Positions 12,244 through 56,608 of a DNA stretch of 64,000 nucleotides are shown in pieces. A model generated the notes under the pieces. That model was given only the letters and a program-made list of their open reading frames with translations, made no database searches and was not told where the DNA came from. Made by a program: the position numbers and the translations under genes. This DNA is from Oscillospiraceae bacterium. Its GTDB lineage: Bacteria; Bacillota; Clostridia; Oscillospirales; Oscillospiraceae. Position 1 is the first letter of the stretch. Each line of letters opens with the position of its first letter. The stretch is from the NCBI GenBank assembly GCA_021203885.1, contig JAJQAH010000031.1, positions 1 through 64,000 on the forward strand, given 5' to 3'.

Positions 12244-13806
12244 TTATCCGGAAGAATCTTCCTGTTCCGCCTGCTTTTTGGCCTGTTCCGCAGCGGCTTT
12301 TTCCCTGTCATATTCCATTTTATATATATGCTTGACCCGGGCATTATATTCACGGGCCTGCTGAACATCCCCCAGCTTTTCATCCACCATCGCCAGAGCA
12401 TTGTATACATCCAGCAGCTGCGGATCATTTGGGCCGAACCGGCCGGCCAGGATCTTTCTGGATGCCTCCAGCGCCTTCGCGGAGTCCTCATAATTCTCCC
12501 GAATAAAAAGCAGGGCTCCGAGGTTATACTGCGCCTGAGCCACACCCACATGATCCTCTTCCACGTTGTTGAGCCAGATACTCAGGGATTCCCGCAGAAG
12601 CTGCTCGGCCTCATCCAGACGGCCCAGGCCCCTGCAGGCGGCCGCCAGGTTGTCCAGGCTCTCGGTCACCGCCGGATGGTCCGTCCCGAAACAGGCACGG
12701 CGGATCTCCAAAGCCCGTCGGTGGAGGGTCTCCGCCTCCTCATATTCTTCCCGCCCGCAGAGAAGAACCCCCAGGTTGTTCAGGGACTGGGCGACGGCGG
12801 GGTGATTAACTCCCAGAGATGCCTCTCTGGCTTGAAGGGCAAGCCTATAATACTCTTCTGCTTTTTCACTTTCATCGTGTACATCATGGATCTGTCCGAG
12901 GTCCTCATACATCTGGGCAAGCTCCGGAGAGGTTTCCTCTCCGCACCCGCCATAGATCTCCATTGCTTCCTTTTCTGCCTTTTCCGACTCATCCGGCCGG
13001 TCGGTATATAGATACAGTACGGCCAGCCGGGCCAGTTTATCTGCCACTTCCGGGTCTTCCGGTGACTTGGATTGTTTCAGAAGGTCGGCGGCCTGCTGAA
13101 AAAGGGTCTCGGCCGCATCGAAAAAGCCCTGCGCCATAAAGGCTTCCGCCAGCCGTCCCAGAGCATCGGCGAAGGCGGGATTTCCCGGAGTCAGCGTATC
13201 CTCATACAGTTTGATCACCTGACGCAGGATCTTTTCCGCCTGTTCCGGCTGCCCCATGGCCATATAATTGTCCGCCATACTGACCATGATCCGGCCAGGT
13301 TCGGGATCCTGTTCTCCCAGGTCGCGCTTCAGCATCTCCAGTGCTTTCCCCAGGTGATCCTGGCTTTCCAGGAGCCGGCCGGCCGCTTTATCGCATTCGG
13401 CCACGCCGGCCAGAACCTGCGCGATGCCCTGTGCGTCATCCGGGTCCTCTTTTTCCAGGACCTGCAGCGTCCGCTGCAAAATGGGTTCCGCATGGTCAAA
13501 CCGGCCCAGCTGCAGATAGAGCGCTGCCAGCGCATAGTCGGCCGCGGCTGTCTCCGGATGATCCGGGCCGTAACAATCACGACAGACCTTCGCGCTCTCC
13601 TCCAAATATTCTTCCGCGTTCCCGAAGTCACCTGCGGCCCGGCACAGCTCGCCGAGATTTCCCAGCCCCAGTGCAAGGTGCTCCCGGTCCTCTTCCTTTC
13701 TGGCTTTCTCCACCATTTCTTTTGCCAAGGTCAGAGACTGTTCACTTTCGCCCTCCTGCCACAGCCGGATCATTTCCTGATTCAGTTCTTCCCAGTCGCT
13801 CGCCAT
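12244..13806 (-). CDS. Tetratricopeptide repeat protein (kinesin-light-chain-like TPRs)
   Basis: Repeated NLGxLxxxxGxxxEAExxxxxALxIR..GxDHPxxAxxLxNLA units. Confidence 0.9.
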   Translation of the reverse strand: MASDWEELNQEMIRLWQEGESEQSLTLAKEMVEKARKEEDREHLALGLGNLGELCRAAGDFGNAEEYLEESAKVCRDCYGPDHPETAAADYALAALYLQLGRFDHAEPILQRTLQVLEKEDPDDAQGIAQVLAGVAECDKAAGRLLESQDHLGKALEMLKRDLGEQDPEPGRIMVSMADNYMAMGQPEQAEKILRQVIKLYEDTLTPGNPAFADALGRLAEAFMAQGFFDAAETLFQQAADLLKQSKSPEDPEVADKLARLAVLYLYTDRPDESEKAEKEAMEIYGGCGEETSPELAQMYEDLGQIHDVHDESEKAEEYYRLALQAREASLGVNHPAVAQSLNNLGVLLCGREEYEEAETLHRRALEIRRACFGTDHPAVTESLDNLAAACRGLGRLDEAEQLLRESLSIWLNNVEEDHVGVAQAQYNLGALLFIRENYEDSAKALEASRKILAGRFGPNDPQLLDVYNALAMVDEKLGDVQQAREYNARVKHIYKMEYDREKAAAEQAKKQAEQEDSSG

Positions 13807-13985: not shown

Positions 13986-14014
13986 TTGACAAGTAAAACG
14001 ATATCATGTAAACT
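13986..14014 (+). promoter_or_regulatory. Putative promoter of the transhydroxylase operon (TTGACA-17-TAAACT, extended -10 TG)
   Basis: -35 13986-13991, TG at 14007-14008, -10 14009-14014; about 300 nt upstream of first gene. Confidence 0.55.
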
Positions 14015-14129: not shown

Positions 14130-14198
14130 ATGAAACACACAACAAATTCAAAGGATTCTACCCTTACCTGGCGGGGATATTTCCCATATAATGTGTAG
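14130..14198 (+). other. Candidate 22-aa leader ORF MKHTTNSKDSTLTWRGYFPYNV
   Basis: ATG 14130 to TAG 14198, between promoter and leader terminator; ribosome-binding site weak. Confidence 0.25.
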
Positions 14199-14314: not shown

Positions 14315-15127
14315 ATGGATTCGCTGACTTATTACAAAACCCAAAGCTCTTTCACGGACCCGCGCAGCTATCAGGAACTGTATGATGCTCTGCCCCGCAC
14401 CGCCGAGGAACTTTCCGCTGTTGTTGACGGCCTGATGCTGGATTACAGGGATATATATAAGTATCCTATCGTCAATGAACGTCTTTTAACCATGCATTCC
14501 CGGACGGCAGAAGCTGTTATCGAGTCCATGCTTTCCTGGAATAAGGAACCTCTTGCCGAGGCCCGGCCGATGCCCGACCGTTTTCTGGCGGGAACATGTG
14601 ACTATGCCAACCTGTTCGTCTCCATGGCCCGCAACGCCGGAATCCCGGCTAGGAAACGGGCGGGCTTTTCTGAAGGCGAAAGCTGTGAGCGGCCCGAGTA
14701 TTACGATGAGAACGAGAATCAGTGGAAAATGCTGGATATCTCCGGCATGTATCCGGGCGAGTTCATTCCGGCTGCCGACATCTGGCTTGGCTGGCGCTGC
14801 GGCGAGGTGGACGCGAAGAAATTCACCGCCGCCATGGACAGCGGCTCGACTCTGATCCTGGCAAACCTGATGCTGGATATCGCCGCCATGAACAAACGGG
14901 AACTGCTGGAATGGGACCGCTATTCCTGGTCTCTGCGCCCGCTGGACGAGTTCAGCGACCGGGCCCTGCAGACACTGGACAAAGCGGCTGAATTGCTGCT
15001 TGCCGGGGATGACGGGCTGGAGGAGCTGTGGGCCTTATATGAAAATGAGGAGGGCATCCAGGTTCCGCGCATCGTCAGATGCTATCCGCCCAAGACTCCG
15101 CCCCACAAAGCGGAAGTCCCCGTCTGA
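14315..15127 (+). CDS. Transglutaminase-like fold protein, catalytic His apparently absent
   Basis: FLAGTCDYANLFVSMARNAGIPAR matches the transglutaminase-like Cys region; NQWKMLDIS resembles the W..D region; no His between them. Confidence 0.65.
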   Translation: MDSLTYYKTQSSFTDPRSYQELYDALPRTAEELSAVVDGLMLDYRDIYKYPIVNERLLTMHSRTAEAVIESMLSWNKEPLAEARPMPDRFLAGTCDYANLFVSMARNAGIPARKRAGFSEGESCERPEYYDENENQWKMLDISGMYPGEFIPAADIWLGWRCGEVDAKKFTAAMDSGSTLILANLMLDIAAMNKRELLEWDRYSWSLRPLDEFSDRALQTLDKAAELLLAGDDGLEELWALYENEEGIQVPRIVRCYPPKTPPHKAEVPV

Positions 15128-15254
15128 TCATGTTGTTGTCAGGAGCCGGCTCCTGAAAATATACGAGTTCAATCATCCCTACATGTGCCTGGCGCGTGGC
15201 CGCCGCGTACCGGTACCCGAAACCTACTTTAATATAGAATGAGAGGTAACTGCA

Positions 15255-17867
15255 ATGTCCATAAACGAAGGGTCCTTTACCACGTTCAAAAGCTCGGGTT
15301 ACTCAGCTTTTTGTAACGGATCCCACATTGCTGCGGTCGATGTGAAGGATGGAAAAATCCTGCGCATACGCCCCTTCCGGTACGACTGGAAGTACTCCAA
15401 GGAGCATCTGAATCCATGGAAGATTGAGGCCAGAGGAAAAGTTCTGGAGGCACCCTCAAAGACCTCCTGCGGTCCTTTCGGCATCACATGGAAAAAAAGC
15501 ATCTACTCCCCCAACCGGATCCCGTACCCGATCAAGCGGGTGGACTGGGACCCCAACGGGGAACGTAATCCGCAGAACCGGGGCATCTCCGGGTATGAGC
15601 GTATTTCGTGGGATGAGGCACTTGACATCATTACCAGCGAGATCCGCCGGATCATTGATACCTACGGTCCGTATGCCATCTATGCACAGGGCGACGGTCA
15701 CGGTGAGACGAAGATGGTCCACGGCCCCCACGGGTGCATGTTCAAACTGCTGGATCTTCTGGGCGGTTTCACCATGCAGATCCGGAACGCCGACTCCTGG
15801 GAAGGCTGGTTCTGGGGAACCAAGCACTTCTGGGGCGGTGAGCCTTTCGGCCTGATGCCAAACTGCTCCAATCTGTATACGGATGTGGCCAAATACAGTG
15901 AGCTTCTGCTTTACGAGGGCTGCGATCCCACCACCACCACCCGCGGATTCTGTTCCGGCGACCAGATCAGCCGTTTCTGCCTGTTCTATCGGGACATCGG
16001 CATCGAGACCATCTACATCTGTCCGGATCTGAATTACGGCGCCGCTGTTTTCGCGGACAAATGGATCCCGATCCTTCCGAATACCGATCCGGCCCTGCAT
16101 CTTGCCATCGCATATCAGTGGCTGAAAGCCGGCACCTATGATCAGGAGTATCTGGACAAGCATTCCGTGGGCTTTGACAAATTCGCCGAATATGTACTTG
16201 GCGAGGAGGACGGTGAACCCAAGACACCTGAATGGGCCTCTAAAAAATGCGGTGTTCCCGTCCGGATCATCAAGGCCCTGGCCATACACTGGGCGGAAAA
16301 AGTTACATCCGTGGTCCACGGATTCGGCGGTCCCTATATCCGTGGCCCCTATTCCAGCGAGGTTGCCCGTATCGAGGGTTGCGTCCTGGGCATGCAGGGC
16401 CTGGGCAAACCCGGTATCCACTCCATGTGCTATAACAACCGCGCCGTGTTCGGTTCGGAGGATCACCCCGTCGCACCGCCGACGCCGTGTTCCATCATGC
16501 ACGAGCCGTACCAGCTGAACGTGCGTGCGGCCTATACCGGCTACAACCCGTTCCCCTGGCAGGGTCTTCCCAAACAGTGTATTCCCGAAACTCTGATCCA
16601 CGATGCGATCCTGAAAGGTCATTTCGAGATCTACGGCTCCTCGCTGCAGGTCACGCCCGCCAGCGAGCAGTTCATCAAATACACGTATCCGGCCCCGGGC
16701 TGTTCGCCCATCCATATGATGTGGTCCGACACGCCCTGCCTGACGACCTGCTGGAATGACTCCAACAGCACCATCGAAGCGTTCCGTCATCCCTCCATCG
16801 AGTTTATCCTGGTGCAGCATCCCCGCATGGAGAATGACTGCCTGTTCGCCGATATCGTACTGCCCGTCAACACGAAGTATGAGGAGGAAGATATCGGGGA
16901 CGACCGCGAATCCGCCGGCTACGACTTGATCTATCTGGAAGACCAGTGTATCGAACCCCTGGGTGAATCCCACTCGGACTACGAGATCGTATGCATGATT
17001 GCGGAACGACTGGGCCTGCTGGAAGAGTATACCGACGGCGAGACGGTTAAGGAAAAGATCAAAAAGGGATTTGATGAATCAGGCGTTGAGAAAGTCTGCG
17101 GCTTCACGTGGGAAGAGTTCCGGGAAAAAGGCTATTTTGCCGTTCCCTGTGATCCCGAATGGGAAAAATACCGTCCCGGCCTGAACGAGTTTTATGAGGA
17201 CCCGTCCAAATATCCACTTGAGACGCCCTCCGGTCTGCTGGAGTATGAATCCATCAATCTGAAAAAGTACTTCCCGGACGATGATGAGCGTCCGCCCGTT
17301 CCACACTGGGTGGAAAAAAGTGAGTTCCACGATGAGCGCATCGGCGGCGAAAGAGCGAAAAATTATCCGCTGCTCGTCATTTCCAACCATCCCCGCCACC
17401 GCACTCACGCGAATATGGACGACAACGACTGGTTCCATGAGATCGTGACCTGCAAGGTCAAGGGCGATGACGGTTACCTGTATGAGCCTGTGTGGATTCA
17501 TCCTTCAGATGCGGAGCCCCGCGGGATCAAAGACGGTGACGTCGTAGAAGTGTACAATGAGCGCGGTATCGTCCTGGGCGGTGCCAAGGTCTGGGAACGC
17601 ATTATGCCCGGGGCTGTCTACATGGACCATGGTGCCCGCGCCGACTTTATCGATCCGGGTAAGATCGACCGGGGCGGCGCCATTAACCTGATCTCTTCAC
17701 ACCACACGACCTCCAAGAACTGTGCCGGCATGGTATGTTCCGGATTCCTGGTAGATGTCAGGAAGTGCCACCTTGATGAGCTTCGCAGCAAGTATCCCGA
17801 GGCTTTTAACCGCCCGTATAGTCCTTCATCCGGACTGGTTTTCGAGCGAGTCCTCGCGAAAAAATAA
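15255..17867 (+). CDS. Pyrogallol-phloroglucinol transhydroxylase-like molybdopterin large subunit (paralog 1)
   Basis: 870 aa Mo-bisMGD oxidoreductase fold; lacks N-terminal CxxCxxxC FeS motif; NADSWEGW matches the Asp-Ser(Mo ligand)-Trp region recalled for Pelobacter acidigallici transhydroxylase; partner FeS subunit follows. Confidence 0.85.
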   Translation: MSINEGSFTTFKSSGYSAFCNGSHIAAVDVKDGKILRIRPFRYDWKYSKEHLNPWKIEARGKVLEAPSKTSCGPFGITWKKSIYSPNRIPYPIKRVDWDPNGERNPQNRGISGYERISWDEALDIITSEIRRIIDTYGPYAIYAQGDGHGETKMVHGPHGCMFKLLDLLGGFTMQIRNADSWEGWFWGTKHFWGGEPFGLMPNCSNLYTDVAKYSELLLYEGCDPTTTTRGFCSGDQISRFCLFYRDIGIETIYICPDLNYGAAVFADKWIPILPNTDPALHLAIAYQWLKAGTYDQEYLDKHSVGFDKFAEYVLGEEDGEPKTPEWASKKCGVPVRIIKALAIHWAEKVTSVVHGFGGPYIRGPYSSEVARIEGCVLGMQGLGKPGIHSMCYNNRAVFGSEDHPVAPPTPCSIMHEPYQLNVRAAYTGYNPFPWQGLPKQCIPETLIHDAILKGHFEIYGSSLQVTPASEQFIKYTYPAPGCSPIHMMWSDTPCLTTCWNDSNSTIEAFRHPSIEFILVQHPRMENDCLFADIVLPVNTKYEEEDIGDDRESAGYDLIYLEDQCIEPLGESHSDYEIVCMIAERLGLLEEYTDGETVKEKIKKGFDESGVEKVCGFTWEEFREKGYFAVPCDPEWEKYRPGLNEFYEDPSKYPLETPSGLLEYESINLKKYFPDDDERPPVPHWVEKSEFHDERIGGERAKNYPLLVISNHPRHRTHANMDDNDWFHEIVTCKVKGDDGYLYEPVWIHPSDAEPRGIKDGDVVEVYNERGIVLGGAKVWERIMPGAVYMDHGARADFIDPGKIDRGGAINLISSHHTTSKNCAGMVCSGFLVDVRKCHLDELRSKYPEAFNRPYSPSSGLVFERVLAKK

Positions 17868-17885
17868 ATAAGGAGCCTGCAGAAG

Positions 17886-18710
17886 ATGGGAAAAATTTTA
17901 CTGATCGATATTACCCGGTGCAACGGATGTTACTGCTGCCAGCTCTCCTGCAAGGACGAGCATGTGACCAACGACTGGTCTCCCTACTCAAAGCCTCAGC
18001 CCAATACCGGACATTTCTGGTGGAAAGTCACGGAGACGGTCATCGGAACGGTCCCGAAAGTACGGGTCCATTATATGCATGACACCTGCCAGATGTGTGA
18101 AAACGCCCCCTGTCTGGAGGCAGCTGAGCACGGAGAGGTTTATCGGCGTCCGGACGGGATCATCATCATCGATCCGGAGAAGTCCTACGGGCAGCGCCAC
18201 CTGATGGATGTCTGCCCCTATGGCGCCATTTACTGGAATGAAGACCTGAATATCCCGCAGAAATGTACCGGGTGCGCGCACCTGCTGGATAACGAGGGCT
18301 GGACCGAGCCACGCTGTGTCCAGTCCTGCCCCACCGAAGCACTGATCTACGGAGAGGAGGAAGATCTGAAAGACCGTCTTCCGGAATTCGAGCAGCTGCA
18401 CCCCGAATACGGGACCAAACCCAGGGTCTACTACAAGGGTCTGCACAACAAATACTTCGTGGCCGGCGAGATCTTTGATTCGGTTAAAGACGAGTGCCTG
18501 AAAGGTGCCAACGTGACCCTGATCAACGCGGAGGGGGAAGACCTGGCTACCCTGCAGACAGATATCTTCGGTGACTTCTGGTTTGAACGCCAGGAACCCG
18601 GAATGTATTCACTGCGAATTGAAATGGACGGCTATCCCACCCGCACATTGGAGGAGATAGACGCGACAGAGACCGACATTAACGTCGGCAGCATAGATCT
18701 GGCAGGCTGA
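17886..18710 (+). CDS. Transhydroxylase-like FeS small subunit with C-terminal transthyretin-like beta domain (paralog 1)
   Basis: CNGCYCCQLSCKDEH, CQMCENAPC, CTGCAHLL..CVQSCPTEAL; C-terminal GANVTLINAEGEDLATLQTDIFGDFWFE.. ; 274 aa. Confidence 0.87.
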   Translation: MGKILLIDITRCNGCYCCQLSCKDEHVTNDWSPYSKPQPNTGHFWWKVTETVIGTVPKVRVHYMHDTCQMCENAPCLEAAEHGEVYRRPDGIIIIDPEKSYGQRHLMDVCPYGAIYWNEDLNIPQKCTGCAHLLDNEGWTEPRCVQSCPTEALIYGEEEDLKDRLPEFEQLHPEYGTKPRVYYKGLHNKYFVAGEIFDSVKDECLKGANVTLINAEGEDLATLQTDIFGDFWFERQEPGMYSLRIEMDGYPTRTLEEIDATETDINVGSIDLAG

Positions 18711-18735
18711 GAGGCCTTTACTAAGGAGGAAAATC

Positions 18736-21315
18736 ATGGCTGACGAGGAAAGAATCGGCATTGAGCTTCCCGGCGTGGAGCTGGAGGAAGGCGAACATGT
18801 CTTTACAAACTGCGCAATCGGAGGCGCGGTTTTTGTCCATGTAAAAGACGGAAAGATCACCAAAGTCCGCCCCATGGTATTTGGAGACGATGACAGTCCT
18901 GCTTGGACCGTCAACGCCAGAGGAAAGAGTTTCACTCCTCCCCGTCGTACTTCCCTCGGTAATTACGTGGTTTCCATGAAAGGCCGTATTTACTGCGAGA
19001 ACAGGATCAAATACCCCATGAAGCGCGTGGACTTCGATCCCAACGGGGACCGGCATGTGGAAAACCGCGGCAAGAGCGGTTATGAGCGGATCACCTGGGA
19101 CGAGGCATTCGACCTGCTGGAATCCGAGATCAAGCGTATTCACGCCACCTACGGCAAGGCTTCCATCACCGGCTGCACCGGCTCCCACGCCGATTTCGGA
19201 CTGCTCCAGTACAAGATGGGTCCCTTCGGCCGGTTCTGGAATATGCTCGGCTACAGCACCCTGTCCGATAACCCTGACTCCTGGGAAGGTTGGCACTGGG
19301 GCGCGACACACGCCTGGGGTTATTACTGGAAGCTGGGCATCAGCGACAACTTCGATATGCTGGAAGAAGCTCTCACTTACTCGGAGCTTCTCGTGTTCTG
19401 GGGCGTGGATCCAAACACGTCCGCCGGCGGATACAACGGCCAGGACGGCTGCCGCTGGCGCTGGTGGTGCAAGGAACTGGGCATGGAGATGGTCTTCATC
19501 GACCCCTGGTGCAACTATACAGCCGCGGTCTGGGGCGACAAATGGCTGGCCCCCTACCCCGCCACAGACGGAGCCATGGCCGAGGCCATTGCCTACGTCT
19601 GGATCACGGAAGACACATATGACCACTGGTTCATTGAGAACAAGTGTTACGGTTTTGAGGACTTTAAAGAGCACATTCTGGGCCTCGACGAGGGGGGATT
19701 CCCCCGGACGCCCCAGTGGGCCGAGGAGATGTGCGGGGTGAAAGCCAGGGATATCGTGGCGCTGGCCCGTGAATGGGCCGCAAAGAAATCCATGCTCTGC
19801 ACGGCTTCCATCTACGGCGTTTCCGGCGCCTGCCGTCAGCCTCTCTGCACGGAATGGGCCCGGCTGATGGTCCTTCTTCTGGCCATGCGCGGTCTGGGCG
19901 CCGACGGTTGTAACACCTGGGGCGGTGCTTCCATGGCTCCGCCCATGGATATGTCATTCCGCTTCTTCGGTTACTCCGACGTTGGCTGGGATACTTTCGG
20001 CATCGCCGCGACCCATCAGGCCCATAACACCGTCAAACAGAAGACCTACCGCATTCTGCTTCCGGAGTGCGTGATGAACGAGAAGACCGAGTGGATCGGC
20101 GAAGGATTCTGCGGCAACTCTTTGGAGCAGCAGATCACTCACAACGTCTGTCCGCTTCCGAAGGAGGAGGGCGGCGCTCCGATCCATATGATCTACCGGC
20201 AGGGCGGTTCCTTCATCTCCACCATGACGGATACCAACCGCTGGACGCGCATGTTCCATTCCCCGAATCTGGAGTTCTGCGTCACCAGCGATGTCCACTA
20301 CTCCAGTGAGACAAAATTCTATGATCTGATCCTGCCGATCTGCTCCGGCTTCGAACGCGAGGACATCTGCGAACTGGGTGCTCCCGGCGGATACGGCGCG
20401 AATGACATGGGCGCCAACTTCCGGGTCATCATCTACATGCAGCAATGTATCGAGCCTCTTTGGGAGTCCAAGACCGACTACGAAATTTACTGCGAGCTGT
20501 CCAAACGACTGGGCTTCTATGATGAGTTCACCGAGGGATGTACGATCACGGACTGGATCGAGCGCGTATATAACGCCTCTTCCATGCCGAAATACATGAC
20601 TTTCGAGGAGTTCCGGAAAAAAGGCTACTTTGTGGTGCCCATTCCAAAGCCCGACTTCAAACGGGCCGTTTCCAACAAATGGTATTACGAGGACCGGGAG
20701 TGCGATGTGCCCGACCACAACAATCCTCTGAAAGGGACTTTCCGTGCCAAGATGATGGGAACTCCCACCGGAAAGATCGAATTCACATCCACTTTCCTGG
20801 ATGAGCACTTCCCGGATGACGAGGAGCGGCCCGTGAAAGTCAAGTATCTGGAGCCGTGGGAAGGCTACCACTCCTCATTCTCGGAAAAATACCCGCTGAT
20901 CATGGAAACGCCGCATATGCGCTTCTCCTACCATACGCATTATGACAACAAGGCCCCGTGGATGGATGATATCCACGCCCACAGGGGCTTGAAAAACGGC
21001 TACGCCTACTGGCCGATCCGTATCCATCCCGAGGATGCATATGCAAGGAACATCCATAACGAGGACATCGTAAAAGTTTACAATGACCGCGGCGCGGTCC
21101 TGTGCATGGCCTATGTGACGGAGCGAGTGAAGCCCGGCTGTGTCATGTCTTACCAGGCAGGCGCCAAATACGACCCGCTGGAACCCGGCAAAGAAGGAAG
21201 CATCGACCGCGGCGGATGCATGAATCTGCTGACACCCAGCCGGATGGTCTCCAAATACGCGCCCGGCATGGTCAGCAACTCAAGCAATGTGGAAATCGAG
21301 AAGTGGGAGGATTAA
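18736..21315 (+). CDS. Transhydroxylase-like molybdopterin large subunit (divergent paralog 2)
   Basis: 859 aa; NPDSWEGWHWG conserved; no N-terminal FeS motif; followed by its own FeS subunit. Confidence 0.83.
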   Translation: MADEERIGIELPGVELEEGEHVFTNCAIGGAVFVHVKDGKITKVRPMVFGDDDSPAWTVNARGKSFTPPRRTSLGNYVVSMKGRIYCENRIKYPMKRVDFDPNGDRHVENRGKSGYERITWDEAFDLLESEIKRIHATYGKASITGCTGSHADFGLLQYKMGPFGRFWNMLGYSTLSDNPDSWEGWHWGATHAWGYYWKLGISDNFDMLEEALTYSELLVFWGVDPNTSAGGYNGQDGCRWRWWCKELGMEMVFIDPWCNYTAAVWGDKWLAPYPATDGAMAEAIAYVWITEDTYDHWFIENKCYGFEDFKEHILGLDEGGFPRTPQWAEEMCGVKARDIVALAREWAAKKSMLCTASIYGVSGACRQPLCTEWARLMVLLLAMRGLGADGCNTWGGASMAPPMDMSFRFFGYSDVGWDTFGIAATHQAHNTVKQKTYRILLPECVMNEKTEWIGEGFCGNSLEQQITHNVCPLPKEEGGAPIHMIYRQGGSFISTMTDTNRWTRMFHSPNLEFCVTSDVHYSSETKFYDLILPICSGFEREDICELGAPGGYGANDMGANFRVIIYMQQCIEPLWESKTDYEIYCELSKRLGFYDEFTEGCTITDWIERVYNASSMPKYMTFEEFRKKGYFVVPIPKPDFKRAVSNKWYYEDRECDVPDHNNPLKGTFRAKMMGTPTGKIEFTSTFLDEHFPDDEERPVKVKYLEPWEGYHSSFSEKYPLIMETPHMRFSYHTHYDNKAPWMDDIHAHRGLKNGYAYWPIRIHPEDAYARNIHNEDIVKVYNDRGAVLCMAYVTERVKPGCVMSYQAGAKYDPLEPGKEGSIDRGGCMNLLTPSRMVSKYAPGMVSNSSNVEIEKWED

Positions 21316-21317
21316 AC

Positions 21318-22154
21318 GTGAAGAAGTACGGAATGGTCATCGACGTGGCCAAGTGTACCGGATGTAACAACTGTTATCTCGCCTGCAAGGATGAGAATGC
21401 CGGTGAGGAACATGAGGGATATACGGCGCCTCAGCCCATCCGGTTTCAGAACTGGATCCACGTCAATGAGATCGAGCGTGGCACATTCCCGAAGGTGAAA
21501 CTCAGCTGCGTTCCCGTCACCTGTGGTCATTGTGATAATCCCAGGTGTATGACGCAGGCCAAGGACGGGGCCGTCTATAAACGCAGGGACGGCATCGTCA
21601 TCATCGACCCGGAAAAGGCCAAAGGCCAGAAAGACATTGTCAACACCTGTCCTTACAGAGTCATCTGCTGGAATGAGGAACTCCAGCTTCCCCAGAAGTG
21701 CGATCTGTGCGCCCACCTGCTTGACCGGGGATATGAAAATCCCCGGTGCGTGGAGATGTGCCCGACCGGCGCTCTGACATTTGGTGATTTGAATGACCCT
21801 GAAAGCGAGATCTCCAAGCTGGTGGCGGAAACGAATCCGTCTTCCCGGCATCCCGAATTTGAACTGCAGGAACGGGTCCTCTATCTGAACAACCCGAAAT
21901 CCTTTATTTCCGGTACGGTCGTGTATAAAGATGACGACATGTGTGTCGTCGGAGCGGTCGCCACACTGAAGCGTGACGGAAAAGTAGAACAGACCTATGT
22001 AACCAATGCCTTCGGTGACTTCTGGTTCGACGGGCTGGACTCCAAAACCGATTATGAGATCATCATTGAGCTGGAAGGGTACAAAACACTTGAATTAAAG
22101 ACACGCACCCTGGCCAGTGTCAACATGGGCGATCTGTTCCTGGAACGGGCTTAA
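21318..22154 (+). CDS. Transhydroxylase-like FeS small subunit (paralog 2; GTG start)
   Basis: CTGCNNCYLACKDEN, CGHCDNPRC, CDLCAHLL..CVEMCPTGAL, C-terminal beta domain AFGDFWFDGLDSKTDYEIIIELEGYK. Confidence 0.85.
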   Translation: MKKYGMVIDVAKCTGCNNCYLACKDENAGEEHEGYTAPQPIRFQNWIHVNEIERGTFPKVKLSCVPVTCGHCDNPRCMTQAKDGAVYKRRDGIVIIDPEKAKGQKDIVNTCPYRVICWNEELQLPQKCDLCAHLLDRGYENPRCVEMCPTGALTFGDLNDPESEISKLVAETNPSSRHPEFELQERVLYLNNPKSFISGTVVYKDDDMCVVGAVATLKRDGKVEQTYVTNAFGDFWFDGLDSKTDYEIIIELEGYKTLELKTRTLASVNMGDLFLERA

Positions 22155-22166
22155 GGAGGTTTCCTG

Positions 22167-22763
22167 ATGAAGTTAAATGTCGGCGATAAAATCGAATTCG
22201 GAGCCTATGTTCAGGACCGGCCTTACGGCGAAGACACGGATCCCATCACATGGATCGTTCTGGATGTCCAGGATGACAGGGCACTGATCCTTACCGAAAA
22301 ATGTATTGAAAATGTCCAGTATAACAAAGAGCTCGTTCCCAGCACATGGGCTACCTGCACTCTCCGCCAGTGGTTCAACGGGGACTTTTACGAGAGTGCG
22401 TTCACCCCGGAAGAACAGGCGCAGATTCTGGAAGTAACGCTGACCAATCCGGGCAATAAGCAGTTCAACACCGAAGGCTGTGAGGATACCGTGGATCGGA
22501 TCTTCGCCCTTTCGATCGATGAGCTGGAAAAATATCTGCCGGAAAAGAAAGACCGTCTGGCACCCGCCACAGAACTGGCCAAGACGCATAACACATACAT
22601 ATACCCGGACACCGGAAATGCCATCTGGTGGCTGAGAAGCCCGGGCTGCAACAATATCAATGCTTCCCGGGTCACCGTAGGCGGCTCGGTCTGCGGCCTG
22701 ATCTACGACGATGCCAGACCCCACCGGGCCGTGCGTCCCGCCATGTGGATCAAAACCGACTGA
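22167..22763 (+). CDS. DUF6273-like protein (copy A)
   Basis: FGAY..DPITWIVLDV..LRQWFNGDFYESAFTPEEQ..WWLRSPG..AVRPAMWIKTD; strong TAAGGAGGT ribosome-binding site. Confidence 0.75.
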   Translation: MKLNVGDKIEFGAYVQDRPYGEDTDPITWIVLDVQDDRALILTEKCIENVQYNKELVPSTWATCTLRQWFNGDFYESAFTPEEQAQILEVTLTNPGNKQFNTEGCEDTVDRIFALSIDELEKYLPEKKDRLAPATELAKTHNTYIYPDTGNAIWWLRSPGCNNINASRVTVGGSVCGLIYDDARPHRAVRPAMWIKTD

Positions 22764-22777
22764 AAGGATGACCGGAC

Positions 22778-23383
22778 ATGAGTAACGAAAATTTCACCGT
22801 CGGCGGCCTGGTCACGATGGGCGTATTCCCCCAGAGCGACCCCAGCGGCGAAAAGAAAGACCCCATTGACTGGATCGTCCTGGCGGTTGAGGACGGAAAA
22901 GCCCTGCTCATCAGTGAAAAAGGCCTTGACTGCCGGATGTACCACGGCGATAACACCACGATGACTTGGGAAAACTGCGATCTGAGAAAGTGGCTGAACG
23001 GTGAGTTTCTGGAAGACACGTTCACACCGGAAGAACAGGAAGTTATCCTGACCACTCATCTGCTTAATCCGGACAGCACCGTCCACGGCGCCGCCGGCGG
23101 CAATGAGACGGATGACAGAGTTTTCCTTCTGAATGTGGATGAGGCGGAAAAATACTTTGACAGCGACGAGGCCCGTATGGCGGACCCCACGCCCTATTCC
23201 GACGCCAGAGGCGTGTTTATCAATGTACGCACCGACAAGGTCTGGTGGTGGCTGAGAAGCCCCGGTTATTACGTCAGTGACGCCGCAGGGGTCAACTATC
23301 TGGGCCAGCTTCATAAAAGCGGAAGCAATGTCTCCACGACCAACAATGCGGTCCGGCCCTCTATCTGGGTAAAAACGGACTGA
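22778..23383 (+). CDS. DUF6273-like protein (copy B)
   Basis: DPIDWIVLAVEDGKALLISE..LRKWLNGEFLEDTFTPEEQ..WWLRSPG..AVRPSIWVKTD; paralogous to copy A. Confidence 0.75.
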   Translation: MSNENFTVGGLVTMGVFPQSDPSGEKKDPIDWIVLAVEDGKALLISEKGLDCRMYHGDNTTMTWENCDLRKWLNGEFLEDTFTPEEQEVILTTHLLNPDSTVHGAAGGNETDDRVFLLNVDEAEKYFDSDEARMADPTPYSDARGVFINVRTDKVWWWLRSPGYYVSDAAGVNYLGQLHKSGSNVSTTNNAVRPSIWVKTD

Positions 23384-23401: not shown

Positions 23402-23437
23402 AACCGCGAACCGCAACTTGGTTCGCGGTTGTTTTTT
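23402..23437 (+). terminator. Terminator of the transhydroxylase operon
   Basis: AACCGCGAACC-GCAACTT-GGTTCGCGGTT-GTTTTTT. Confidence 0.9.
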
Positions 23438-23463
23438 AGGAGACAAAATCCAGAAAAGCAGGA

Positions 23464-23503
23464 ACGCCACCCGCCGCTTAAAAGCGGCGGGTGGCGTTTC
23501 GTT
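23464..23503. terminator. Strong GC-rich hairpin between convergent operons (possible terminator for clpB)
   Basis: AACGCCACCCGCCGC-TTAAAA-GCGGCGGGTGGCGTT. Confidence 0.7.
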
Positions 23504-51227: not shown

Positions 51228-52109
51228 ATGCTCCCACCCAACTTTCACGAACTCGAACCCTACAAAGATTACACCCCTCTTGAAGATCCTCATGTGGGGC
51301 CTGTAGTCGACCCTTACGACGGGCTGGTTTTTTATGAACTCAGTCACGTTTGGGGTACCGGCGTTCCTTCCTACCCTGGAGATGACGATGTCATCTTCGA
51401 CCACGGTGTGAAACACGCTCAGTTCGGCGTGCAGGCTTTCAAGGTTCGTACGAACTTCCACACCGGCACCCATTTCATTGCACCGATTCATATGTATTGC
51501 TACGGGGACGATCTGGAGGAACTTTCTCCCGACCATTTCTTTGGCAACGGCATCATCCTGGATCTGCGCAACAAAGGGAACTGGGATAAGATCACAGCCG
51601 AAGATCTGCAGGCTGCCGGGGAGATCCGTGACGGCGACATTGTCGCTATCAACACCGGCTGGCATCATAAATATTCCGACTCTCTGGAATATTTCGGTCA
51701 GGCTCCCGGTCTGACTGAGGATGCTGCGGAATACCTGATCTCTAAAAATGTCAAGCTGGTCGCCGTGGATATGCCGTATGTGGACTGTCCTGTGACCACG
51801 GTTCTGACCGCCCATGTGGGTCGTCCCGGACCTTTCATGCGCCGTCTGGTTCCCACCTACAAAGAAGAAACCGGACGGGATGCCATGGAAGACTACCCCG
51901 GCTTCTATCCTGCGCATAAAGCCCTGGCCAAAGCCGGGATCCCGGTTATTCAGCAGATGTCCGGTGACGTGGATGATATCACCGGCAAACGGGCGACCAT
52001 GATTGCTACTCCCTGGAAGATTCGCCGCGGCGCTGCCTGCCCAGTCCGCTTCACAGCCATTTTCGATCCAAGCGGCGAAGTGCGCATCGACAAAGGCGAA
52101 GCCTTTTAA
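51228..52109 (+). CDS. Cyclase-family (PF04199-like) protein with altered metal motif
   Basis: FHTGTHFIAPIH in place of HxGTHxDxPxH; DGDIVAINTGWHH; strong AAAGGAGGT ribosome-binding site. Confidence 0.85.
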   Translation: MLPPNFHELEPYKDYTPLEDPHVGPVVDPYDGLVFYELSHVWGTGVPSYPGDDDVIFDHGVKHAQFGVQAFKVRTNFHTGTHFIAPIHMYCYGDDLEELSPDHFFGNGIILDLRNKGNWDKITAEDLQAAGEIRDGDIVAINTGWHHKYSDSLEYFGQAPGLTEDAAEYLISKNVKLVAVDMPYVDCPVTTVLTAHVGRPGPFMRRLVPTYKEETGRDAMEDYPGFYPAHKALAKAGIPVIQQMSGDVDDITGKRATMIATPWKIRRGAACPVRFTAIFDPSGEVRIDKGEAF

Positions 52110-52126
52110 GAAAGGAGAGTATTAAC

Positions 52127-52939
52127 ATGAGTGTTCATATTTACGACCTGACTCACACTTTTGAGCCGTTTATGCCTCAGTGGCCTTCCGGCTGCAACCT
52201 GAAAGAGGAAGTCATCCGTTTCCATGCGAATGACGATATGTATGATATACAGTGGGAAGGAATCATGCACCGCGGCACCCACATGGATGCTCCCCTGCAT
52301 GTGACCGAACTGACTCCGGATATCACTCAGTATCCTCTGTGGCGTTTCTTCGGCACCGGTGTTGCCCTGGATATTCCGAAGGGGAAATGGGGAAAACTCG
52401 AGCCTGAAGATCTGATGAAATATGACAGCGTCATCAAGGAAGGCGATATCGTTTTAATCAACACATCCCAGCATCATATCTGGAAGGACAGTGATGATTA
52501 TTTTGCCTATGGCTGCGGTGCCACCGGCGAGCTGGCCAAGTGGTTCGTGGAAAAGAAGGTCAAAATGGTGGGCTATGGCTGCCAGGCTAACGACCATCCG
52601 ATCGCGACCAAGCTTGTTGACCACGGCCTCGGACCGACACGTCCTGACCTGATCGATGAATGGGAAGCGACATACGGCCATGATCCGAAAGAAGACTTCC
52701 CTCTTTGGGAGCCCGGTCATAAGTTCCTGATGGTGGAAGGCGGCATCCCCGGCGTCGAAAACGTGGGCGATGATGCTTACGGTATTCCCGAGGGCGAAAG
52801 TGTCTTCGATGAAATCACCGGCAGGCGCTGCTTCTTCGCCGCTTTCCCGTGGCGTTTTGTCAGAGGCGAAGGTTCCGGTGTCCGCGTATTGGCTCTCACT
52901 GATCCTGATCAGACTTTCCGCTTTGAGACCGGAGAATAA
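52127..52939 (+). CDS. Cyclase-family (PF04199-like) metal-dependent hydrolase with canonical motif
   Basis: MHRGTHMDAPLH; EGDIVLINTSQHH; PGHKFLMVEGGIPGVENVG. Confidence 0.87.
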   Translation: MSVHIYDLTHTFEPFMPQWPSGCNLKEEVIRFHANDDMYDIQWEGIMHRGTHMDAPLHVTELTPDITQYPLWRFFGTGVALDIPKGKWGKLEPEDLMKYDSVIKEGDIVLINTSQHHIWKDSDDYFAYGCGATGELAKWFVEKKVKMVGYGCQANDHPIATKLVDHGLGPTRPDLIDEWEATYGHDPKEDFPLWEPGHKFLMVEGGIPGVENVGDDAYGIPEGESVFDEITGRRCFFAAFPWRFVRGEGSGVRVLALTDPDQTFRFETGE

Positions 52940-53233: not shown

Positions 53234-53638
53234 ATGAATGTTACTCGCGTGGATCATATCGGCATTGCCGTAAAAAATCTGGATGAAATGATTCAGTGGT
53301 ACGAAGATACGCTGGGCGTTAAAGCCCACGGGACTGAAATAGTCGAGGATCAACAGGTCAAAGTGGCATTTCTTCCTATCGGTGACAGTGAACTGGAGCT
53401 TTTGGAAGATACTACCGGTGAAGGCACTGTTGCCCGCTTCATTGAAAAGAACGGAGAAGGCATTCAGCATATCGCTCTGCGTGTGGATGATATCAATGCG
53501 ACCCTGGAAGAACTGAAAGCCAAAGACGTACGGCTGATCGATCAGAGCCCCAGATATGGCGCCGGCGGTGCCAGTATCGCTTTTGTGCACCCCAAAGCCA
53601 CGCACGGAGTTCTTCTCGAGCTGTGCGAGCGCAAATAA
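53234..53638 (+). CDS. mce: Methylmalonyl-CoA epimerase-like VOC protein
   Basis: RVDHIGIAVKNLDEMIQWYEDTLGV..GEGIQHIALRVDDI..LLELCERK. Confidence 0.9.
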   Translation: MNVTRVDHIGIAVKNLDEMIQWYEDTLGVKAHGTEIVEDQQVKVAFLPIGDSELELLEDTTGEGTVARFIEKNGEGIQHIALRVDDINATLEELKAKDVRLIDQSPRYGAGGASIAFVHPKATHGVLLELCERK

Positions 53639-53648
53639 GGGAAGTCTC

Positions 53649-55190
53649 ATGAGCACTGCAGATAAACTGAACCAGCTTGACGAAAAGACCGCACAGGTCT
53701 TAGCAGGCGGCGGTGAAAAAGCCATAGAAAAGCAGCACTCCCAAGGCAAGAATACCGCCCGGGAACGTATCGATTTATTGCTGGATCCGGGTACATTCAC
53801 GGAAATCGACCGTTTTGTAACTCACCGTTGCTCTAATTTCGGCATGGAATCCAAATTCATACCAGCCGACGGAGTGGTCACCGGTTACGGTAAGGTGGAC
53901 GGACGCCTTGTTTTCGTTTATGCCCAGGACTTTACCGCTCAGGGCGGTTCTCTTGGCGAGATGCATGCGGCCAAAATCTGTAAGATTATGGATATGGCTG
54001 TTGAGGCCGGTGCGCCTGTGATCGGCATGAATGATTCCGGCGGCGCCCGGATCCAGGAGGCAGTCGACGCGCTGTCCGGTTACGGAAAGATTTTTTACCG
54101 CAACAGTCTGGCTTCCGGCCATATACCTCAGATTTCCCTTATTATGGGACCTTGTGCGGGGGGCGCCGTCTATTCCCCCGCTTTGACCGACTTTATTATC
54201 ATGGTGGAAAAAGAGAGCCAGATGTTTATCACCGGGCCGGCTGTCATCGCATCCACCACAGGCGAGGAAATCTCTGCCGAAGAACTGGGCGGAGCTGACA
54301 CACAGACGTCAGTTTCCGGTGTGGCCCACCTGTCCGCCGCTTCCGAAGAAGAAGCGATGGAACAGGTTCGTTCTGTATTGAGTTATCTGCCTTCCAATGC
54401 CGATGAAAAGCCGCCTGTTCTGCCTTATGAAAAGGGAGATGAAACCCGGCCGGCTCTGGATACAATCATCCCCGATTCTTCCAATATGCCGTATGACATG
54501 CTGGATGTCATCGAGCAGATCGTGGATGAAGGCACCTTCTTTCAGATTCAGCCTAATTACGCCGACAATATTATCACCGGTTTCGGCCGCGTAGGCGGAC
54601 GCAGCGTAGGTTTCATTGCAAACCAGCCTTTCTCTATGGGCGGTTCTCTGGATGTGAACGCATCCGATAAAGGTGCGCGTTTTATTCAGTGCTGTGACGC
54701 TTTCAATGTTCCTGTCATTAATCTCGTGGATGTTCCCGGCTTCCTTCCCGGCGTGGATCAGGAACAGAACGGCATCATCCGCCACGGAGCCAAACTGCTG
54801 TATGTCTATTCCGTAGCGGAGGTTCCCAAAATAACGGTGGTTCTGCGTAAGGCATATGGCGGTTCTTACCTGGCTATGTGCTCAAAAGATCTGGGCGCAG
54901 ACCACGTATACGCCTGGCCCACCGCCGAAATTGCCGTCATGGGTGCCAGCGGTGCAGCCAATGTTATCTTCCGTAAAGAAATTCAGGCTGCGGAAGACCC
55001 GGAAGCTGCACGAAATGAGAAAGTCCAGGAATATTCCGATCGTTTCGCCACACCGTATGTGGCAGCCGAACGCGGCTTTGTGGATATGGTCATCAAGCCC
55101 TCTGAAACCCGCGCTCAGATCATACAATCTCTTGAGGTTCTTCAAAACAAGAAACGAGAAGGACGCGTTCGTGGCAATATGCCTATGTAA
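53649..55190 (+). CDS. Acyl-CoA carboxyltransferase subunit (methylmalonyl-CoA decarboxylase alpha / propionyl-CoA carboxylase beta type)
   Basis: KNTARERIDLLLDPGTF..MNDSGGARIQE..GPCAGGAVYSPAL..VDVPGFLPG..MGASGAANVIF. Confidence 0.92.
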   Translation: MSTADKLNQLDEKTAQVLAGGGEKAIEKQHSQGKNTARERIDLLLDPGTFTEIDRFVTHRCSNFGMESKFIPADGVVTGYGKVDGRLVFVYAQDFTAQGGSLGEMHAAKICKIMDMAVEAGAPVIGMNDSGGARIQEAVDALSGYGKIFYRNSLASGHIPQISLIMGPCAGGAVYSPALTDFIIMVEKESQMFITGPAVIASTTGEEISAEELGGADTQTSVSGVAHLSAASEEEAMEQVRSVLSYLPSNADEKPPVLPYEKGDETRPALDTIIPDSSNMPYDMLDVIEQIVDEGTFFQIQPNYADNIITGFGRVGGRSVGFIANQPFSMGGSLDVNASDKGARFIQCCDAFNVPVINLVDVPGFLPGVDQEQNGIIRHGAKLLYVYSVAEVPKITVVLRKAYGGSYLAMCSKDLGADHVYAWPTAEIAVMGASGAANVIFRKEIQAAEDPEAARNEKVQEYSDRFATPYVAAERGFVDMVIKPSETRAQIIQSLEVLQNKKREGRVRGNMPM

Positions 55191-55248
55191 ATTGTACCTC
55201 TGTGTTCTTATTGTCACCTGAACGTTGATTTGGAAGGAGAGTCTTGAT

Positions 55249-55383
55249 ATGGGAATTGTCCCTTATGCACTTATGGTGTACGGTCTGACCATAGTAATAT
55301 CGCTTCTTGTTGTCGGCATTATCGTCCTGACCAACAAAATTTTAAGCCGCCATGGGAAAGACGAGGTGGATGAGAATGAGTGA
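55249..55383 (+). CDS. OadG/MmdD-like gamma subunit, 44 aa (not in the supplied ORF track)
   Basis: MGIVPYALMVYGLTIVISLLVVGIIVLTNKILSRHGKDEVDENE*; single TM; GGAGAG ribosome-binding site; stop overlaps next start (ATGAGTGA). Confidence 0.8.
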   Translation: MGIVPYALMVYGLTIVISLLVVGIIVLTNKILSRHGKDEVDENE

Positions 55384-56608
55384 TTTCTTTACACAGCTCT
55401 TTCCCGGGATCAGCACATTTTTTGCCCAGGCCCAGGACAGTATCGCCGTTCCCATCGCCCGGATCGTTTTAATCGCCATTGGCATCCTGCTTGCGTATCT
55501 GGGCTTCAAAGGAACTCTTGAACCTCTGATTATGGTGCCGATGGGCATCGGCATGATTGCCATTAACTGCGGCACCCTGTTCCTGGCAGACGGATCCGTC
55601 GGAAACATCATCATCGATCCGCTGGTTTCCAACGCCACGGATATCATGGATATCATGCAGGTCAATTTCCTGCAGCCAATTTATAACCTAACGTTCTCCA
55701 ATGGGCTAATAGCTTGTCTGGTCTTTATGGGAATCGGGGCACGCAGCGAGATCAGTTTCCTTCTGGCAAAGCCCTGGTCCTCCATTATCATCGCTCTGTT
55801 CGCCGAGCTGGGCACATTTGTCGTGCTGGTTCTGGGTGTATCCGCATTCGGCCTGAGCCCGGCTGAATCAGCCTCCATTGCCACTATCGGCGGAGCAGAC
55901 GGTCCCATGGTCCTGTTTACATCCATGATGCTGGCTCCGGAGCTATTTGTCCCGATATCCATAATAGCCTACCTATATTTGTCGCTAACCTATGGCGGGT
56001 ATCCATATATCATCAAGATGATGGTACCCAAAAAATACCGCGGTATCGATATGTATGTGGATATGCCGGAAGTCTCCCGCAAATCCAAGTTTATCTTTAT
56101 CATCATCGTATGCGGTGTACTCTGCCTGCTTCTTCCGGTTGCCGCGCCACTGATCCTGTCATTCTTTATCGGCATGGCCGTCAAGGAAGCTAAGATCAAC
56201 CGCTATGTTGAACTTTTGGAAAATGCACTCAGCTACTGTGCCACATTTTTCCTGGGTCTGCTGTTAGGCGTGCTTTGTGAGGCCTCCACTCTGCTGAACT
56301 CCACCGTGCTCATTCTGCTGATCCTCGGGATCCTGGCTCTGGGGATCTCCGCAATCGGCGGTCTGATCGGCGGCTGGGTCATGTATTGGGTCCACAAAAG
56401 GCGCGGTCAGGATTTCAATCCTGTAATCGGCGTAGCCGGTGTGTCCTGTATGCCTTCCACCGCAAAGCTGGCGCAACATGCAGCGCAGGATGAAAATCCT
56501 TTTGCGATGATCCTCCCGGTAGCGATGGGTGCCAATATCTCCGGTGTCATTACCTCCGCTATTATCGCCGGAATTTTTGTCGCTACGATTTCCATGGTCG
56601 TTGTTTAA
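55376..56608 (+). CDS. Na+-translocating decarboxylase beta subunit (OadB/MmdB/GcdB family)
   Basis: GIGARSEISFLLAKP; IATIGGADGPMVLFTSMMLAPELF; GANISGVITSAIIAG. Confidence 0.94.
   Translation: MSDFFTQLFPGISTFFAQAQDSIAVPIARIVLIAIGILLAYLGFKGTLEPLIMVPMGIGMIAINCGTLFLADGSVGNIIIDPLVSNATDIMDIMQVNFLQPIYNLTFSNGLIACLVFMGIGARSEISFLLAKPWSSIIIALFAELGTFVVLVLGVSAFGLSPAESASIATIGGADGPMVLFTSMMLAPELFVPISIIAYLYLSLTYGGYPYIIKMMVPKKYRGIDMYVDMPEVSRKSKFIFIIIVCGVLCLLLPVAAPLILSFFIGMAVKEAKINRYVELLENALSYCATFFLGLLLGVLCEASTLLNSTVLILLILGILALGISAIGGLIGGWVMYWVHKRRGQDFNPVIGVAGVSCMPSTAKLAQHAAQDENPFAMILPVAMGANISGVITSAIIAGIFVATISMVVV

Follow-up and report, generated by a model that had tools for sequence, protein, structure and literature searches.

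Why should a gut bacterium keep two molybdenum enzymes of the same architecture next to each other in a single operon, and do both carry out the same reaction? Anaerobic breakdown of tannins and gallate in ruminants, termites and other herbivores has one structurally known transhydroxylase. The window analysed here (a stretch of 64,000 nucleotides from a herbivore-gut Oscillospiraceae bacterium) contains a seven-gene co-directional operon at 14315-23383 (Table 1), which encodes a transglutaminase-fold protein (TG), two successive pairs of large and small subunits (L1 and S1, L2 and S2) and two DUF6273 proteins (D1 and D2). Drawing on the gene set and its conservation, on clades and active-site residues, on co-occurrence and on pathway neighbourhoods in relatives, we propose with moderate confidence that L2S2 feeds phloroglucinol into ring cleavage, while L1S1 acts on another polyhydroxylated aromatic in a related step that moves or removes a hydroxyl.

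Layout and conservation of the operon

The co-directional block with short gaps described in the first-pass annotation was confirmed by open reading frames, intergenic distances and Pfam: from TG to D2 the gaps measure 127, 18, 25, 2, 12 and 14 nt, that is, 2-25 nt inside the L1-D2 run and 127 nt after TG. The leader promoter and the terminator that it had placed at the two ends were recovered as well, the former with a -10 element conserved in two relatives, the latter followed by a further, stronger hairpin that is common to the operon and a convergent clpB-like gene. Promoter-like sites are frequent across the region (13 observed versus 7.6 +/- 3.3 expected), so that the promoter scan by itself is not evidence; the promoter in Table 1 is better supported than a site at 13986 because its -10 element aligns in two relatives, whereas the latter, despite a higher consensus score, receives no support from relatives and was rejected. 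A leader riboswitch, such as a Moco motif, was also discarded, Rfam giving no match at the gathering threshold and one chance-level match at a relaxed threshold.

Table 1. Features of the operon and of related genes in the window.
Feature	Position	Strand	Evidence
TPR-repeat protein, conserved operon neighbour	12244..13806	-	Pfam TPR_12
Leader promoter TTACCT-17-TATAAT	14164..14192	+	TACAAT at the aligned -10 position in L046 and L155
TG, transglutaminase-fold protein, 270 aa	14315..15127	+	Pfam PF01841 (Transglut_core), 25.4 bits
L1, bis-MGD enzyme large subunit, sister clade, 870 aa	15255..17867	+	Best PDB match AthL, 445 bits
S1, iron-sulfur small subunit, 274 aa	17886..18710	+	AthS 216 bits; Pfam; alignments
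L2, pyrogallol-phloroglucinol transhydroxylase-type large subunit, 859 aa	18736..21315	+	AthL 751 bits
S2, iron-sulfur small subunit, 278 aa, GTG start	21318..22154	+	AthS 198 bits
D1, DUF6273 protein, 198 aa	22167..22763	+	PF19789, 101 bits; position kept in three relatives
D2, DUF6273 protein, 201 aa	22778..23383	+	PF19789, 105 bits
Intrinsic terminator	23402..23437	+	12-bp stem with T run; hairpin 23402-23430, then TTGTTTTTT
Second terminator-like hairpin, bidirectional	23461..23500	.	Stem of 16-18 bp, present on both strands
Cyclase-family hydrolase 1, candidate dihydrophloroglucinol-type ring-opening hydrolase	51228..52109	+	PF04199
Cyclase-family hydrolase 2, partner of hydrolase 1	52127..52939	+	PF04199

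The gene set is not a product of chance, since two relatives share it in full. One of them (L046/L026) carries TG, L1, S1, L2, S2, D1 and D2 at 69, 91, 86, 94, 88, 73 and 79% identity, the other (G065, locus L155) at 42, 86, 77, 96, 85, 79 and 82%, and a third genome, MAG SIG272 (L047), has the six genes from L1 to D2, with L1 cut by the contig end. The conservation in related genomes on which the first-pass annotation had staked its reading beforehand is therefore there. The window's own genome has a second TG-L1 pair elsewhere (L027); the TPR gene has a relative in L026, and in L155 a TPR gene lies between TG and L1.

The gene called transglutaminase-like does have the fold, but not the activity that the name implies: in the alignment the catalytic Cys occurs only in the window copy and is Ser in three relatives, while the His is missing in all of them, so that the Cys-His-Asp triad is not kept and a catalytic transglutaminase was ruled out. 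The structure model of D2 resembles an IgA peptidase (9qa6) with low confidence, a fold hint at most. TG and the DUF6273 proteins may serve as assembly or binding partners.

Beyond the operon itself, 53 of 301 Oscillospiraceae genomes carry both L1-type and L2-type genes, two carry L1 only, six L2 only and 240 neither, meaning that L1-type genes are accompanied by L2-type genes in 53 of 55 genomes. At the genus level the counts are 27 both, 0 L1 only, 3 L2 only and 53 neither (p about 8e-19). Because the L1 family almost always occurs alongside the L2 type, it probably handles another step of anaerobic tannin or polyphenol breakdown.

Relationship of the two enzyme pairs

Pfam domains bear out the claim of two complete enzymes with the architecture of AthLS (PgtL) from Pelobacter acidigallici (PDB 4v4c). 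Both large subunits contain AhtL-like domain 1 (PF21423; 76 bits in L2 and 38 bits in L1, for a cut-off of 27 bits), Molybdopterin and Molydop_binding, and both share with AthL the DSW Mo-ligand motif and the lack of an N-terminal iron-sulfur motif, neither of them matching Molybdop_Fe4S4 in Pfam. No NCBIfam family above cut-off fits L1 or L2. Both small subunits combine Fer4_11 with a carboxypeptidase-regulatory-like (transthyretin-type) C-terminal domain and the 12-Cys AthS pattern; what had been read in S1 as a degraded second cluster motif is, in the alignment, simply that pattern itself. AthLS is a single enzyme, whereas the window holds a tandem pair.

It was L1/S1 that the first-pass annotation had matched to pyrogallol-phloroglucinol transhydroxylase, but judged by sequence similarity L2/S2 is the better match, L2 scoring 751 bits against AthL and L1 445 (small subunits in Table 1). 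In our maximum-likelihood tree, L2 falls within a supported clade with AthL and putative RhL-like sequences, as sister to AthL plus RhL-like rather than nested with AthL, and L1 forms a separate sister clade to this entire group (UFBoot 100). Placement of both large subunits outside the transhydroxylase clade had been named as fatal to the earlier reading; L2 lies inside the broad clade. Since the putative RhL-like branch, and not L2, is the nearer relative of AthL, the phylogeny does not prove transhydroxylation by L2. Resorcinol hydroxylase RhLS of Azoarcus anaerobius, a cytoplasmic, Ser-ligated enzyme of aromatic hydroxylation and in this respect like L1 and L2, belongs to the same broad group in a published phylogeny (PMC10100899); its putative RhL-like relatives in our tree, about 1000 aa long, group with AthL and not with L1 or L2.

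Among the active-site residues, L2 conserves His144, Tyr152, Asp174, Ser175, Trp176, Tyr404 and Tyr560, with Lys for Arg153 (Y, K, Y, Y at pocket positions 152, 153, 404 and 560) and Val for Trp354. L1 retains His144, Asp174, Ser175 and Trp176, but has Gly, Pro, Ala and a gap at the four pocket positions, and so lacks the three pocket tyrosines of AthL. The D-S-W region singled out earlier in L1 is indeed present, but is not special to it, as L2 has it too. The two large subunits are 38% identical, and the AlphaFold model of L1 matches 4v4c with a TM score of 0.82.

Catechol dehydroxylases (Cdh and Eadh of Eggerthella and Gordonibacter) are likewise bis-MGD enzymes that act on aromatic hydroxyls and are expanded in gut anaerobes, the Gordonibacter type, as here, being a cytoplasmic enzyme that has an iron-sulfur partner. 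They are, however, related to acetylene hydratase and distant from AthL (PMC7028382), whereas L1 and L2 show the opposite affinity when judged via acetylene hydratase (45 and 52 bits, versus 445 and 751 to AthL), and L1 as a catechol dehydroxylase was rejected on this similarity.

Phloroglucinol pathway context

An anaerobic polyphenol context, as first suggested, is supported by relatives in which L2-type genes lie within phloroglucinol-degradation clusters. In G008 and G003 the gene order is L2-S2-thiolase-PGR-MerR-cyclase-TfD-TAL, PGR being phloroglucinol reductase, and the family content matches the Clostridium scatologenes phloroglucinol cluster (PGR, DPGC, TfD, TAL; PMC10470551). In Sporobacter termitidis, divergent L2/S2 and L1/S1 pairs are located close to a thiolase and a PGR-like SDR. 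In the lineage of the window, unlike C. scatologenes, the hydrolase is probably encoded by two cyclase genes in tandem, which lie 28 kb from the Mo operon rather than next to it. The orthologue of hydrolase 1 in G065 (83-84%) stands beside cyclase 2, PGR and BKACE, cyc1-cyc2-PGR-BKACE forming one operon, and the orthologues of hydrolase 2 (82% in G065, 63% in G074) are each directly followed by PGR, which points to a phloroglucinol ring-opening hydrolase encoded by two genes. In the window's own genome (71% complete) we found the cyclase pair, thiolase-BKACE-3HAD and a Moco synthesis gene; it yielded no clear PGR orthologue and, for DPGC, nothing nearer than the cyclase pair (33-39%). PGR is present in operon-bearing relatives (66% in the sister genome G001, 61% in G065), and neither the own genome nor the sister showed a UbiD-type gallate decarboxylase.

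From these observations we infer the substrates, the direction of flow and the L1 reaction as follows. The operon would supply two molybdenum enzymes, both cytoplasmic, with which polyhydroxylated benzenes from tannins and other polyphenols could be broken down anaerobically. L2S2, with a bis-MGD Mo held by the DSW serine, would shift a hydroxyl between polyhydroxybenzenes, giving a product that could then be reduced and opened by phloroglucinol reductase, a cyclase-family hydrolase (probably the pair at 51228-52939), a 3-hydroxy-acid dehydrogenase and a beta-keto-acid cleavage enzyme. L1S1, a sister enzyme that shares the fold, Mo ligand and His/Asp pair of L2S2 but has a changed substrate pocket, would move or remove a hydroxyl at a point before L2 or parallel to it, using a different polyhydroxylated aromatic. 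The two enzymes probably have different substrates, and they might plausibly act in one relay.

Alternative reactions for L1S1

Could L1S1 instead perform net redox chemistry on a hydroxybenzoate or other polyphenol, with electrons passing via the iron-sulfur subunit, either removing a hydroxyl reductively or, run backwards, adding one as resorcinol hydroxylase does? We regard this as a serious possibility, though short of even chances. Such chemistry would suit the 16 cluster cysteines found in 25 of 34 L1-partner small subunits, as in NrfC/DmsB-type electron carriers; the expansion of L1 to about ten copies per genome (G028) resembles that of catechol dehydroxylases, and some L1 loci adjoin TRAP or MFS transporters and an Amidohydro_2 gene. 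Yet S1 of the window has only 12 of these cysteines, many L1 genes have no small subunit nearby, and by its scores L1 stands outside the acetylene hydratase/catechol dehydroxylase lineage. Pelobacter massiliensis converts hydroxyhydroquinone to phloroglucinol by sequential transhydroxylations, and L1S1 might similarly be a second transhydroxylase in a chain, with tetrahydroxybenzene intermediates common to L1 and L2. The same fold and Mo ligand, the three-cluster AthS pattern of S1, and the adjacency and near-obligate co-occurrence of L1 with L2 speak for it, and the 22 of 69 L1-type loci where a small subunit is absent within 1.5 kb fit self-contained, redox-neutral chemistry. We nevertheless rate it slightly below the redox reading, as L1 is without the pocket residues at 152, 153, 404 and 560, and the P. 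massiliensis precedent is set beside L1S1 by description, not by sequence.

AthLS requires 1,2,3,5-tetrahydroxybenzene as co-substrate (PMC13039779), which L1S1 might make or salvage for L2S2; the sister-clade position, common operon and co-occurrence would all follow, but up to about ten L1 copies per genome exceed the need for priming, which makes this role improbable. Plain redundancy, with L1 and L2 as isozymes of a single transhydroxylase, would account for their common architecture and operon, but is very improbable given 38% identity, separate ancient clades and differing active-site residues.

Under the preferred reading, with L1S1 acting on a different aromatic from L2S2, the L1 sister enzyme, equally widespread, altered in its pocket and a near-constant companion of L2, is a concrete candidate for steps, as yet unassigned, that move or remove hydroxyls, and the tandem operon offers a clean enzyme pair for expression and assay. 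More tentatively, and with somewhat less than an even chance of being right, the L1 clade may constitute a class of bis-MGD molybdenum enzymes that had not been described before, with its own polyhydroxylated-aromatic chemistry. Linked to the transhydroxylase branch, it would have diversified in the Oscillospiraceae of herbivore and termite guts, reaching about ten copies per genome, and would be the Firmicutes equivalent of the catechol dehydroxylases. A literature search on tetrahydroxybenzene returned nothing on this clade. The statement that the system had not been described holds, in the literature searched, for the seven-gene arrangement and the L1 clade, but not for the presence of two enzymes: the available part of one report gives two AthLS operons per genome in the sediment Chloroflexi RBG-2 and RBG-1351, and mentions no operon there in which L/S pairs stand in tandem together with TG and DUF6273 genes (PMC3971608). 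As a separate observation, some L1 genes have Amidohydro_2 and MFS neighbours reminiscent of the Gordonibacter ellagic-acid cluster (PMC12771579).

The tandem operon and its conservation

ORF calling recovered all seven genes at the positions where the first-pass annotation had placed them, that is, a transglutaminase-fold gene (TG), two pairs of large and small subunits (L1-S1 and L2-S2) and two DUF6273 genes (D1 and D2). Intergenic spacing is 2-25 nt from L1 through D2, and 127 nt between TG and L1. The proposed promoter is likely because its -10 box aligns with TACAAT in two relatives; an Rfam search of the operon leader at the gathering threshold yielded no element.

Features of the operon and of the putative ring-cleavage region in the window
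Feature	Position	Strand	Remarks
Likely promoter	14164-14192		TTACCT-17-TATAAT
Seven-gene operon	14315-23383	+	TG, L1, S1, L2, S2, D1, D2
S2 start	21318	+	GTG start codon, 2 bases past the L2 stop
Terminator ending the operon	23402-23430		T run after hairpin
Second hairpin	23461-23500		Stronger, bidirectional; common to the operon and a convergent clpB-like gene
Tandem PF04199 cyclase-family hydrolases	51228-52939		Orthologues directly 5' of a PGR-like SDR in two relatives
Three-gene set	53234-56608		Directly 3' of the cyclase pair: glyoxalase/epimerase-like protein, carboxyltransferase, Na+-pumping decarboxylase beta subunit

The gene set proved to be conserved, as all seven genes recur in the close relative Oscillospiraceae bacterium AH.12_13 (loci L046 and L026) and in G065 (L155), which belongs to another genus and is 98% complete; there a TPR gene separates TG from L1. 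In the window and in L026, too, the operon has a TPR gene beside it. L1 through D2 are present in MAG SIG272 (L047), where the contig end truncates L1. The window's own genome holds a second TG-L1 pair at another locus (L027; L1 74%, TG 37%), without a small subunit, and TG and L1 therefore travel together. TG carries a transglutaminase fold signature, but alignment shows Ser in place of the catalytic Cys in three relatives and no His in any copy, which makes a structural or binding function the more probable one. DUF6273 reportedly occurs in papers on phage receptor-binding proteins and DGR-target proteins, and a weak structure model of D2 shows likeness to part of an IgA peptidase.

Large and small subunits

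The best PDB match of both large subunits is AthL, the large subunit of Pelobacter acidigallici pyrogallol-phloroglucinol transhydroxylase (751 bits for L2 versus 445 for L1), and Pfam AhtL domain 1 was found in both. Trees built with FastTree (116 sequences) and IQ-TREE (61 sequences, with E. coli TorA, DmsA, BisC and FdhF as outgroups) were concordant. The first-pass annotation had singled out L1/S1 as the match to this transhydroxylase, but L2 is the closer one. L1-type enzymes form their own clade (support 100), sister to a clade of L2-type, AthL and probable resorcinol hydroxylase (RhL)-like enzymes (100), and the joint clade (100) has the DMSO/TMAO/biotin-sulfoxide reductases as its sister group. 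The L2-type Oscillospiraceae enzymes group together (100), as do AthL and a branch of ~1000 aa that is probably RhL-like (100); AthL is nearer to that branch than to L2, so phylogeny alone is no proof of transhydroxylation by L2. A true AthL-branch transhydroxylase, distinct from the L2 branch, occurs with a cupin and a thiolase in another Oscillospiraceae genome (G090, L160:5857-9416).

For the residue comparison, AthL was reconstructed from its match alignment with L2, giving His144, Asp174, Ser175, Trp176, Tyr404 and Tyr560, which agree with the residues reported for the crystal structure. L2 retains Tyr152, Lys153, Tyr404 and Tyr560; L1 has none of these four and retains His144, Asp174, Ser175 and Trp176. 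The top structural match of the L1 AlphaFold model (pLDDT 76) is 4v4c, the transhydroxylase structure (TM 0.82).

S1 had been described as having a degraded second cluster motif, a reading that the alignment does not bear out: AthS (the transhydroxylase small subunit), S1 and S2 have a 12-Cys pattern in common, which is therefore the family norm, and by sequence S1 is of the AthS kind. Of the cysteines compared, 26 of 34 partners of L1-type enzymes possess 16 or 17, and 32 of 40 partners in the L2 and AthL groups possess 12, some deviating members perhaps reflecting ORF-calling errors. Since, in addition, 22 of 69 L1-type loci lack a small subunit inside 1.5 kb, the electron partner of L1-type enzymes is variable.

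In a literature search limited to open-licence papers, we found no description of the tandem operon or of the L1 clade. The operon components extend a known enzyme type by new members or variants, and genomes with two AthLS operons are already on record (PMC3971608).

Probable phloroglucinol pathway context

Two genomes (G008 and G003) carry L2-S2 followed by a thiolase, SDR, MerR, cyclase-family hydrolase, 3-hydroxyacyl-CoA-dehydrogenase-like protein and beta-keto-acid cleavage enzyme (BKACE), with additional CoA transferases in G003. These are, by family and gene order, the same families as in the biochemically demonstrated phloroglucinol cluster of Clostridium scatologenes (PMC10470551). 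Taken with the retained residues, these neighbourhoods make it probable that L2S2 produces phloroglucinol (or a like meta-polyol), which would next be reduced and opened.

Operon-bearing relatives contain a phloroglucinol reductase (PGR)-like SDR (66% in the sister genome G001, 61% in G065). The gene order in G065 is cyclase-cyclase-PGR-BKACE-permease-CoA transferase, its two cyclases being 82-83% identical to the window pair; in G074 the same pair precedes PGR, an acetylene-hydratase-lineage molybdenum enzyme (L159:4108-6534) and L2-S2. Because of these orthologues beside PGR, the window also contains a likely ring-opening hydrolase, and the arrangement suggests that the pair may be a two-gene dihydrophloroglucinol hydrolase. 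The window's genome (1.1 Mb, just 71% complete) carries thiolase-BKACE-3HAD (G000:C10) and a Moco gene; a search of it for PGR gave no clear candidate. The three-gene set beside the cyclases resembles a methylmalonyl-CoA epimerase-decarboxylase set, and a similar one adjoins cyclase and BKACE genes in G028 (L149).

Co-occurrence of L1 and L2

L1-S1 adjoins L2-S2 in many Oscillospiraceae, including Sporobacter termitidis, often in divergent orientation. In a survey of 301 Oscillospiraceae genomes, both types occur together in 53, L1 alone in 2, L2 alone in 6 and neither in 240 (27, 0, 3 and 53 by genus; Fisher p about 8e-19), with typing by identity among the matches listed and at most three candidates scored per genome, so that individual genomes may be mistyped. 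Copy numbers are highest in G028 (about ten L1-type, five L2-type). Co-occurrence and the retained catalytic core suggest that L1S1 most likely has another polyhydroxylated aromatic of this metabolism as its substrate, on which it may transfer, remove or add a hydroxyl group.

At L086:7362-13695, an Amidohydro_2 protein, an MFS transporter, L1 and S stand in a row whose family content resembles the Gordonibacter ellagic-acid (eam) cluster. Divergent second SDR-TfD-cyclase-BKACE clusters occur at L144 (G008:C19), L145 (G025:C71) and L147 (G018:C39), accompanying the main phloroglucinol cluster in G008 and G025, and may represent a route by which the ring of a different polyphenol is cleaved.
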